Below, piece after piece: positions 27,776 to 30,467 of a stretch of DNA of 34,045 nucleotides (the stretch's first letter is position 1; the number at the start of each line of letters is the position of its first letter). The notes beneath the pieces are model-generated. The model saw only the letters and a list, made by a program, of their open reading frames with translations, did not search any database and was not told where the DNA came from. Source of the stretch: an uncultured Saprospiraceae bacterium (lineage in GTDB: Bacteria; Bacteroidota; Bacteroidia; Chitinophagales; Saprospiraceae); the NCBI GenBank assembly GCA_937929835.1, contig CALFUU010000143.1:1-34045 (forward strand), given 5' to 3'. Position numbers and translations under genes: made by a program.

Positions 27776-29254
27776 ATGAGTGTAATCAGACAATTTGCAG
27801 GACAAACAGTCATCTATGGTATCGGATCAGTACTGTCGAGGATAGTCAACTATCTTGTCATCGTCATCTTACTGACCTATCTATTAGGTGAGCAGACGGG
27901 GGAATTTGGCACCTATGCCTACTTCTATGCTTATGCGACTGTGTTGGTGACTCTATTCTCCTTTAGGCTGGACACAGCTCTTTTTCGATTTGGCAATAAG
28001 AACGAAAACCTCAGTCACGCCTTTGGCACTTCTCTGACGCTTGTACTTGGCGCGGCTATTTTGCTGGTGCTCATTGGCAGCTTCCTCGCACAGCCGATAG
28101 CCAATCTCATCGGTTTCCCAAATGAAGCACGTTATGTCCAGTGGATGGCTTATATCATCGCCTTTGATGTCGTCAATCTCTTACCCTTTGCCAAACTGCG
28201 ACTGACCAACAAGGCCAAAGTATTTGCTATCTATAAGATACTCAATGTCGCCATTATGGTGACTTTGGTACTCCTATTTCTGATCCTCTTTCCCAAATTG
28301 AGAGCACTAGGATGGGATTGGTTGCCTGTACTGCCAGGCTTGATCGACTGGATGTTTATCGCCAATCTGATAGCTAGTGCGGCTTTATTCTTCTTGCTCT
28401 TGCCCCAACTCAAAAACTACACTCCGCAAGTTGATCGTGCACTGGCGATCAAGATGCTGCGCTATGCCTTCCCGCTCGTCATCGTTGGGATGGCCAATGG
28501 GTTTATTCAGTTTTTTGGCGTACCACTACAGAAGATGTTTCTCGGAGAAGATGTGTATAACAATCTGGAAAATGCGGGGATCTATGACTTTACACGGCGG
28601 GTAGCCGGCTTATTTGTTTTATTTACAACCGCCTTCAATTATGCGGCAGAACCCTTCTTCTTCAACAACTCTAGCAAAGAGGATCGTAAAGAGTTGTACG
28701 GAACCATCTGCCGGCTTTTTGTCCTTGTCAGTGGTATTGTCATTTTAGGTCTTTATCTAGGTCTAGACTTGATCAAATACTTAGCGGACAGCAATTATTG
28801 GGGCAGCCTTCATCTATTGCCCATTCTCTTGATGGCCTACCTCTTTCTAGGGATTTATTATAATGTATCGATCTGGTACAAGCTAGCAGATAAGACGAGT
28901 TATGGAGCGATGATCTCTATCATCGGTGTCATCATCACCTTATTTGTGAGCATAGTATTCTTGCCGCGAATAGGGTTTGCGGCCTCTGCGTGGGCAGCGC
29001 TACTGACCTACCTTGTGATGCTCATCATCGGGTATGTCACAGGACAAAAAAATTATCCTATTGCTTATCCAGTGGCGTCTATTGTAAAGGATGTGCTGGT
29101 GATTAGTTTGATTCTTTTAGTAGCGCATTGGGTAAGAGGGGAAGCCAGTGTCGTCGCCAAGTACACGACAAATTGTGTTCTGCTGATTGGATATCTCACC
29201 TATACGTGGACAACAGAGAAAGATGAATGGAAGAGGATGTTGAGGAGAGGCTGA
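27776..29254 (+). CDS. Oligosaccharide/polysaccharide flippase family membrane protein
   Basis: 492 residues from the ATG at 27776 (MSVIRQFAGQTVIYGIGSVLSRIVNYL); a GTG at 27755 would add seven residues that overlap the promoter box. About 12-14 hydrophobic segments run through the protein. The N-terminal motif and FGTYAYFYAYATVLVTLFSFRLDTALFRF are typical of Wzx/RfbX-type lipid-linked sugar flippases of the MOP superfamily. It likely moves an undecaprenyl-linked glycan across the inner membrane. No glycosyltransferases adjoin it, so it is not part of a visible surface polysaccharide cluster. Confidence 0.88.
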   Translation: MSVIRQFAGQTVIYGIGSVLSRIVNYLVIVILLTYLLGEQTGEFGTYAYFYAYATVLVTLFSFRLDTALFRFGNKNENLSHAFGTSLTLVLGAAILLVLIGSFLAQPIANLIGFPNEARYVQWMAYIIAFDVVNLLPFAKLRLTNKAKVFAIYKILNVAIMVTLVLLFLILFPKLRALGWDWLPVLPGLIDWMFIANLIASAALFFLLLPQLKNYTPQVDRALAIKMLRYAFPLVIVGMANGFIQFFGVPLQKMFLGEDVYNNLENAGIYDFTRRVAGLFVLFTTAFNYAAEPFFFNNSSKEDRKELYGTICRLFVLVSGIVILGLYLGLDLIKYLADSNYWGSLHLLPILLMAYLFLGIYYNVSIWYKLADKTSYGAMISIIGVIITLFVSIVFLPRIGFAASAWAALLTYLVMLIIGYVTGQKNYPIAYPVASIVKDVLVISLILLVAHWVRGEASVVAKYTTNCVLLIGYLTYTWTTEKDEWKRMLRRG

Positions 29255-29304
29255 TTGGGGTTTTGTGAAAATTAGCTTTTGTTGATGCAAATTTGCCCGC
29301 CCTC

Positions 29305-29328
29305 CTGAAACTGATGTTTCGGTTCACT
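29305..29328. repeat. Solo copy of hairpin I with TTCACT tail
   Basis: CTGAAAC, loop TGAT, GTTTCGG (29305-29322; one T-G wobble) followed by TTCACT. The flank before it (TTGCCCGCCC) recurs before the copy at 29514, so these two were copied as a longer unit. Confidence 0.8.
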
Positions 29329-29359
29329 TAGTTGCCCATCCAATAATGTCGAGTCGAAG

Positions 29360-29438
29360 CCGATGCTGATGCATCGGTTCACTCTCTTCAAAGGTCGATT
29401 TACGACCTTTGATGCAGCAGAGCTGTACCGTTCGTTCA
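29360..29438. repeat. Three-hairpin structured repeat, copy A
   Basis: 79 bases. Hairpin I: CCGATGC, TGAT, GCATCGG (29360-29377), then TTCACTCTCTT. Hairpin II: CAAAGGTCG, ATTTA, CGACCTTTG (29389-29411). Hairpin III: TGCAGC, AGA, GCTGTA (29413-29427), then CCGTTCGTTCA. It aligns without gaps to copy B, and the stem differences keep pairing. A partial third copy of hairpin III lies at 29447-29459. Confidence 0.9.
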
Positions 29439-29513
29439 CCTTTGAAGCAGCGGAGCTGCACCGTTACTATTTTTGGCGAAGGTAAGTGTGAGAAGAGCCG
29501 ATTGCCCGCCCAC

Positions 29514-29537
29514 CCGAAACTGATGTTTCGGTTCACT
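29514..29537. repeat. Second solo copy of hairpin I
   Basis: CCGAAAC, TGAT, GTTTCGG at 29514-29531 followed by TTCACT. It shares its upstream flank with the solo copy at 29305. Confidence 0.85.
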
Positions 29538-29571
29538 TACTCTTGCACATTCAATTGAAATTTTGCCTATG

Positions 29572-29650
29572 CCGAAACTGATGTTTCGGTTCACTCTCTT
29601 CAATGGTCCGTTTAGGACCATTGATGCAGCGGAGCTGCACCGTTCGTTCA
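29572..29650. repeat. Three-hairpin structured repeat, copy B
   Basis: 79 bases. Hairpin I: CCGAAAC, TGAT, GTTTCGG (29572-29589), TTCACTCTCTT. Hairpin II: CAATGGTCC, GTTTA, GGACCATTG (29601-29623). Hairpin III: TGCAGC, GGA, GCTGCA (29625-29639), then CCGTTCGTTCA. Its right end directly abuts the stop codon (29651-29653) of the small minus-strand gene. Confidence 0.9.
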
Positions 29651-29782
29651 TTACATGAAATAGGTCATCAAATGATCTTTGATGGCCACACGATTCATAA
29701 TCCCATAGACGAGAAGGGCTATGGCTCCGACGACAAAAAAAGTCTTGAATCTCTTCCAAGCAAGACGGTTCTTTTCACGCAT
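29651..29782 (-). CDS. Small single-helix membrane protein, 43 residues
   Basis: The frame from the ATG at 29782 to the TAA at 29651 encodes a basic N-terminus (MREKNRLAWKRFKTF), one hydrophobic segment (about residues 15-27, FFVVGAIALLVYG) and a short tail ending TYFM. The pattern of positive-inside charge plus one helix fits a small inner-membrane protein. It lies 34 bases after the TPR-like membrane protein gene on the same strand, so it is probably cotranscribed. I do not recognise a family. Its stop codon abuts the hairpin element copy B. Confidence 0.6.
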   Translation of the reverse strand: MREKNRLAWKRFKTFFVVGAIALLVYGIMNRVAIKDHLMTYFM

Positions 29783-29816
29783 CGTCTTGTACCTGTGTCT
29801 GCTTGTATAGGACAAA

Positions 29817-30467
29817 TTATTTCTTTTTGGTAAGCTGAGCGATTCTCCTTTTAGAGATCCATCGGATACTCAGCTCTTGATAAATTATCGAGAAGAGGGC
29901 AAAGCCAAAAATAATATTACGACACCACTCAAAGCCCGAAACCAAGTGCTCGAAGAAAGGATGAATGATCAGCAGTTGCACGCCAATCATCACACCAGTT
30001 ATCATCAACAGAATGATCGTCAGTGATCTAAACTTCTGACCTTCGTAACGCAGCTGGCTCACCTTATTTTGGTGAAAAACTTGCTGATAGGTCTTGTTGG
30101 TCTTATCTATTTTAATTAGCTCAGAAAAGATATGATCTGCCGCATAGAAGTCTACAACATTATGCAGCGCACAACCCTTGCGAAATAACAACTCCTGATA
30201 GATATCATCTCCATCTATACTGAAGACACTGTCTTCTATCGTGATCTCTAGGAGCTTATCGACGTACTTGAGGTATTGGTAATATTCTCCCACCTCAAAT
30301 AAGGCCACAGTATACTCTATACTGATCTCCAGACGCATCTCATAAGGAAGCTGATTGATATCAGACCTATTGTGCTCAAAGAAGCGAATCCGCTCTTGAT
30401 AGTCCTTGGGCTCTATGCACCTATAGTCTTGATAGACTAACTCAGATATTTCGTTTGTAAACTTCAC
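29817..30467 (-). CDS. Membrane protein with TPR-like N-terminus, function unknown
   Basis: 216 residues. The first 145 residues are helical, with repeated aromatic and acidic patterns (VALFEVGEYYQYLKYVDKLLE; FRKGCALHNVVDFYAADHIFSEL) that resemble tetratricopeptide repeats. Two hydrophobic segments follow (about 147-166 and 181-199), and the C-terminus is basic (SKRRIAQLTKKK). No catalytic motif is seen. I do not recognise a named family; a protein-protein scaffold at the membrane is a guess. Two TATATTTG boxes on the minus strand lie upstream. Confidence 0.75.
   Translation of the reverse strand: MKFTNEISELVYQDYRCIEPKDYQERIRFFEHNRSDINQLPYEMRLEISIEYTVALFEVGEYYQYLKYVDKLLEITIEDSVFSIDGDDIYQELLFRKGCALHNVVDFYAADHIFSELIKIDKTNKTYQQVFHQNKVSQLRYEGQKFRSLTIILLMITGVMIGVQLLIIHPFFEHLVSGFEWCRNIIFGFALFSIIYQELSIRWISKRRIAQLTKKK

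Follow-up and report, generated by a model that had tools for sequence, protein, structure and literature searches.

An interspersed four-helix palindromic repeat of Saprospiraceae that may act as folded single-stranded DNA

The palindromic elements of Rickettsia and Wolbachia (RPE and WPE) enter genes, and the ERIC and BOX repeats are modular units of about 100 bp that fold into hairpins and carry internal insertions. In integron attC sites it is the structure of a single DNA strand that is conserved, more than its sequence; the stem contains unpaired positions, and these sites are marked by the R-box GTTRRRY and by an integron integrase. According to passages of one published account, known REPs are palindromes of 20-40 bp, most of them tagged GTAG or CGTC, and the RPE sequences of R. 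conorii end in CGTC (PMC3733652).

The window analysed here, a stretch of 34,045 nucleotides from an uncultured Saprospiraceae bacterium (contig CALFUU010000143.1), contains two full-length copies of a hairpin repeat that the original prediction could place in no named family. Rfam bears this out, with 0 matches in the window at the gathering score and, within 29000-29900, none with E values as high as 10, and no published description of the element family was found in a literature search conducted outside most subscription journals.

The copies in the window and their fold

Both copies lie at the predicted positions, align without gaps (86% over 80 nt) and, on a recount, differ at the 11 positions claimed, nine in stems and two in loops. 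All nine stem differences preserve pairing, as had been proposed: in each of hairpins I and II two pairs are changed on both sides, and in hairpin III a G-T pair is replaced by G-C. The features of the region are given below, with scores from R1, a covariance model built from 15 copies.

29360..29438, + strand: element copy 1, full length (79 nt), R1 score 96.1 bits
29360..29377, + strand: hairpin I of copy 1
29378..29386 with 29430..29438: helix P0 of copy 1, on the basis of family-wide mutual information
29388..29412, + strand: hairpin II of copy 1, loop ATTTA
29413..29427, + strand: hairpin III of copy 1
29572..29650, + strand: element copy 2, full length (79 nt), R1 score 98.5 bits; order of parts on this strand: hairpin I, linker, hairpin II, hairpin III, tail
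29572..29589, + strand: hairpin I of copy 2, loop TGAT
29590..29598 (linker) with 29642..29650 (tail): helix P0 of copy 2, on the basis of family-wide mutual information and of other genera
29600..29624, + strand: hairpin II of copy 2, loop GTTTA
29625..29639, + strand: hairpin III of copy 2
29305..29331, + strand: hairpin-I-only copy with GTTCACTTA
29438..29465, + strand: fragment with hairpin III and part of a hairpin II arm
29514..29540, + strand: second hairpin-I-only copy
29651..29782, - strand: small ORF of 43 codons plus TAA (read by eye), stopping directly at the element's TGA

A listed 107-aa minus-strand ORF (29436-29759) overlaps copy 2 in a frame other than that of the 43-codon ORF and is probably spurious. 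ARAGORN found nothing in the whole window. The original prediction did not mention the three partial copies at 29305-29331, 29438-29465 and 29514-29540.

Both strands of the two copies fold much more stably than their dinucleotide shuffles do, whether treated as RNA or as DNA (z -5.2 to -7.1). Hairpins I to III of the predicted three-hairpin layout stand, but the layout was incomplete, a fourth helix, P0, having been missed. P0 forms between the 3' tail and the linker that follows hairpin I, and it thereby encloses hairpins II and III; this helix is absent from standard energy folds of both window copies and was detected in a family alignment, A2, of 146 model matches (143 distinct) from 87 fetched sources, which was fitted to stems I-III and not to P0. 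Linker and tail are complete in 131 of these matches, 57 of which are less than 80% identical to each other and serve as representatives. Over the four helices, standard pairs fill 90.2% of the cells in the 146 matches against 60.6% in shuffles, in a set whose choice by covariance model may under-sample poorly paired copies; the covariation score is 0.643 against 0.166, and slid versions of the layout reach at most 39.4% standard pairs. The fold of the element is no chance feature.

Among the representatives, mutual information between linker and tail tops on the antidiagonal (0.84, 0.61, 0.45, 0.45 and 0.25, with peaks at 22:76, 26:72, 23:75, 27:71 and 24:74), the best off-diagonal value being 0.26. 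P0 alternates Watson-Crick pairs with conserved T.C or C.T mismatches, present in 51-52 of the 57 representatives, and about 73% of its cells are paired, versus 95-98% in stems I-III. Because these mismatches are tandem G.A/A.G on the minus strand, lying there between pairs, P0 should form well on that strand only, and the minus strand is likely the folded one. Read in this sense, the element runs from 5'-RRSA, directly before TGA-N-YGA-N..., through hairpin III and hairpin II (loop TAAAY) to ...n-GAR-n-GAA-CC, hairpin I (loop ATCA) and NTGGG-3'.

P0 was also examined in other genera, in 36 matches from 22 loci (34 usable) found with R1, a model that lacks this helix. At the four covarying P0 positions 108 of 136 cells pair, the shuffled mean being 75.6, or 78.6 without the unusable rows. 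Leaving out four loci that are also in A2 gives 94 paired cells of 120, where shuffles average 68.3; a set reduced to a single match per locus gives 62 of 72, where they average 42.3. In each of the latter two tests none of 5000 shuffles scored as high, although kinship among copies inflates all these comparisons. Stem differences keep pairing across the genome, the genus and the family, in support of the original prediction.

Spread, insertion sites and gene ends

A covariance-model search, as had been suggested, revealed the element to be an interspersed family in the host genome and its relatives. The host genome has 18 BLAST matches, partial ones counted, and at least 42 R1 matches at E<=1 among the 150 of 1086 candidates that were scored; matches occur in 18 of 60 genomes (the host's own and 59 relatives) and, within the host's genus, in 13 of 14, its own counted. 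A further model, R2, matched at least 30 genomes in a sample of 150 from the host's family, covering at least 27 of 112 genera, and in a sample of the phylum at least one of 148, namely the host's own; these counts are lower bounds, because 31 candidates were scored per genome under stricter filters that drop weak matches. One 23-base pattern had 0 matches in viral_contigs, so that carriage by viruses found no support, and the eight stretches in named genomes that such a pattern retrieved are all titled uncultured Saprospiraceae. In these samples, composed mostly of drafts in which several contigs end at or near element repeats, the element is seen within one family only.

Copies look mobile, since they split tRNA genes and other copies; the original prediction had made no such proposal. 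A tRNA match lies in the 60 nt upstream (minus sense) of 11 of the 137 elements with both flanks, compared with 10 of 2608 control windows from the same loci (Fisher p 7e-10), and in the 60 nt downstream of five; within the same upstream distance the other 126 have none. Six of the 11 upstream tRNAs are in sense, reach within 2 nt of the element and end at tRNA positions 23, 23, 24, 27, 27 and 40, which places their ends close to the far side of either the D-arm or the anticodon arm, while two matches abut the tRNA 5' end in antisense and three are more distant from the element. One tRNA-Glu is split in a relative (G006; G and L numbers denote genomes and loci) and whole in G000 and G001. A tRNA intron was considered but rejected, since by eye the anticodon arm seems to have lost part of its far side in comparison with relatives; a search for another tRNA-Glu in G006 gave no match at E<=0.01, with a query that missed most relatives too.

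Sequence of other copies is found in the 45 nt upstream of 23 of 135 elements and downstream of 15 of 135, against 1 of 2639 controls, and many of these are tandem neighbours. At L010 one element sits inside another, with positions 1-40 of the host copy before it, positions 52-78 after it and 11 missing, and an intact paralogue lies nearby; L113 has a similar nested copy with 10 positions missing. Eight of 14 copies inspected by eye in G026 directly follow a 5' fragment of another copy. Copy 1 of the window, which lies between the 29438-29465 fragment and the 29305-29331 remainder, would be nested as in L010, and these two pieces are possibly the 5' and 3' remainders (minus sense), respectively, of an element that copy 1 split. 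Exact repeats adjoin the element at a few sites, not most (86 nt at L146, 57 at L131, 56 at L137, 29 at L163 and 28 at L143), and long target duplication was rejected as a rule.

Other repeats and genes were observed near some copies. A longer conserved repeat (GGCCTCTTTCATTTTAGG...), which looks like a larger folded unit, lies upstream in L012, L013, L110, L121, L164 and L165 from several species, with the element near its end; Rfam gave nothing for L012 and one chance-level match for L164. The hairpin II loop of L123, L122, L016 and L042 contains an insert of 24 nt that could fold into a separate hairpin; this insert is lacking in L009, the G000 counterpart of L123. In L015, L112, L115 and L133 another dispersed palindrome, of the CATTCGACT.CGCTCAG type, apparently sits in element hairpin loops (by eye). 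Near-identical Y1-like genes adjoin the tmRNA on two host-genome contigs (L022 and L023). In L024 a gene for a 208-aa RAYT-like protein seems, by eye, to be flanked by its own hairpin repeat GGTCGAGGTTTGTAACCTCGA (about 1350-1390 and 2030-2049), which is unlike the element, and L130 holds at 834-995 a tRNA-like cluster with YrlA (Y RNA-like) matches of 37.4 and 35.2 bits, below the cut-off of 69.

Several copies stand at the 3' ends of genes. The G011 counterpart of the window locus (L122) shows the same end of the small ORF followed by the start of the element, and L124, L161 and L136, from three species, have the element where similar genes end. A P0 pair varies among these three loci as C:G, T:A and A:T, and the differences in hairpins I and III likewise preserve pairing. 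These compensated changes point to constraint after insertion and are the strongest argument for a function at 3' ends; mobility alone is no sufficient account of changes made in step in P0, hairpin I and hairpin III. Among the 43 of 57 representatives with usable flanks, the upstream ORFs (at least 80 aa, picked by length) were sense in 26 and antisense in 10, with none in seven (p 0.011, uncorrected for kinship of loci), a co-orientation that would equally be expected from an RNA-level role.

DNA or RNA fold, and the search for a mobiliser

The original prediction had left open a folded RNA or a single-stranded DNA. Of the 1267 cells of stems I-III in the 57 representatives, 1211 are Watson-Crick, 9 G.T, 15 A.C and 32 other. 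In contrast, 43 tRNAs taken from these loci have 301 acceptor-stem cells, of which 275 are Watson-Crick, 24 G.T, none A.C and two other (a control that took the 3' offset with most Watson-Crick pairs, for 43 tRNAs among 44 tRNA and tmRNA sequences). One-strand G.U wobbles in variable stems, the mark of a folded RNA, are thus not what stems I-III display; with little wobble and no strand preference, these stems behave as DNA palindromes. The RNA half of the prediction is unsupported, given the stem wobbles and the contrast with tRNAs, and the fold resembles that of a DNA more than that of an RNA. P0 has 18 A.C wobbles, which read as G.U on the minus strand, against 10 G.T; this weakly favours that strand.

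The same comparison bears on the possibility that the element is an RNA element of mRNA 3' ends on the minus strand, for example a terminator, a 3'-end barrier or a protein-binding site, with a selected fold. The co-oriented upstream genes would suit it, as would the gene end shared by three species, where the stop codon lies within a compensated P0; RNA accommodates tandem G.A pairs well, and the excess of A.C over G.T in P0 has the expected direction. The lack in stems I-III of the G.U pairs and strand asymmetry of same-locus tRNAs, the copies inside tRNA genes and the lack of an Rfam match speak against it, and we hold it unlikely. A terminator in particular was rejected, no T-tract being found within the first 20 nt downstream of the element. 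Quasi-palindrome correction, in which one arm templates the other at replication, would give both-sided changes with no need of selection, and the nearly perfect Watson-Crick arms with few wobble intermediates are what it would leave; it should, however, erase the mismatches that P0 keeps while covarying, and loops I and II are conserved. As a full explanation we consider it distinctly unlikely, although it may join the best explanation for stems I-III.

Surveys of Y1_Tnp, RVT_1 and neighbouring ORFs identified no mobiliser, and no excised form of the element was encountered. A REP/BIME-type repeat mobilised by a Y1 transposase (RAYT, IS200/IS605) would resemble the element in being a short hairpin repeat with many, mostly extragenic copies; Y1_Tnp matches were found in 28 of 36 genomes, the host's included with three, and at E<=1 in eight of 11 element-bearing genomes, and at L279 a Y1 gene and an element-like match (24.8 bits) are some 0.7 kb apart. 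However, no convincing element was present at the 32 Y1 loci scanned (best E 1.8) or at 25 of 26 further ones (26 of the 30 fetched), the exception being the weak match at L279; G011, G026 and G087 bear elements but give no Y1_Tnp match at E<=1, and the flank profile of 50 of the 57 representatives reads RRSA upstream and NTGGG downstream, lacking a GTAG or CGTC tag. Y1/RAYT is unsupported as the general mobiliser, and we judge this explanation very improbable. Even less credible to us is that the copies are decayed ends of a known insertion sequence or retroelement: truncated and tandem copies do occur, and RVT_1 is present in the element-bearing G181, G085, G183, G069 and G087, as well as in G001, G002, G008, G012 and G013, but none of the protein clusters among the 274 ORFs beside elements (87 loci) spans more than four loci, and RVT_1 had no match in the drafts G000, G004, G005, G006, G011, G026, G121, G112, G117 and G114, several of them element-rich. 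On this evidence from drafts, a reverse transcriptase seems a doubtful mobiliser. G011 and G026 match neither Y1_Tnp nor RVT_1, and the two element-rich drafts with no match to either family are 95% and 97% complete. By the neighbouring-ORF survey and these two protein families, no insertion sequence was found behind the copies, an origin that would have refuted the original prediction on its own terms.

We therefore lean, with moderate confidence, towards the element being an interspersed mobile palindromic DNA repeat that acts as folded single-stranded DNA, and no classical RNA gene. The minus single-stranded form would be what is recognised or copied, and exposed hairpins would be the points of entry for new copies, which at several sites would have taken the place of the target's far arm. 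Movement could proceed via a trans-acting enzyme or by template switching at hairpins during replication, and some copies at gene 3' ends might then be retained, perhaps as 3' ends or barriers. A more specific version, which we put forward as a tentative conjecture, is that of a transposase-free or unknown-enzyme element spreading from hairpin to hairpin, its P0-closed minus strand replacing far arms in tRNA genes and in its own copies, possibly by template switching.

With many copies in many genera, the family offers a natural system for the spread of palindromic repeats with no obvious transposase, and its tRNA-gene insertions are comparable with intact relatives. Wobble content could tell DNA-fold from RNA-fold constraint, and P0, in which paired letters change together while the mismatches between them stay fixed, offers a design for recognition that is open to testing.

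Comparison with described repeats

The TAACTGA direct repeats, in the part of their description available (PMC4679880), are a different unit. The element shares with REP, BIME and REPIN sequences and their RAYTs the character of short palindromic extragenic high-copy bacterial repeats, but with about 79 nt and four helices it differs from the 20-40 bp palindromes that the passages cited above describe, and it has no consistent Y1 partner, three of 11 element-bearing genomes being free of Y1_Tnp at E<=1. By size, flank tag and Y1 partnership it falls outside the REP/RAYT class.

RPE and WPE are likewise palindromic and gene-entering but belong to another phylum, and we know of no replacement of a target hairpin arm by them; the separation is one of description. 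The same holds for ERIC and BOX, modular hairpin repeats of other taxa that are also set apart by description, for which we are aware of no mismatch-laced enclosing helix. In its one-strand structural conservation with unpaired stem positions the element resembles integron attC sites, a likeness of general description. Overall, the element fits among palindromic interspersed repeats, and its fourth helix, P0, is unusual.
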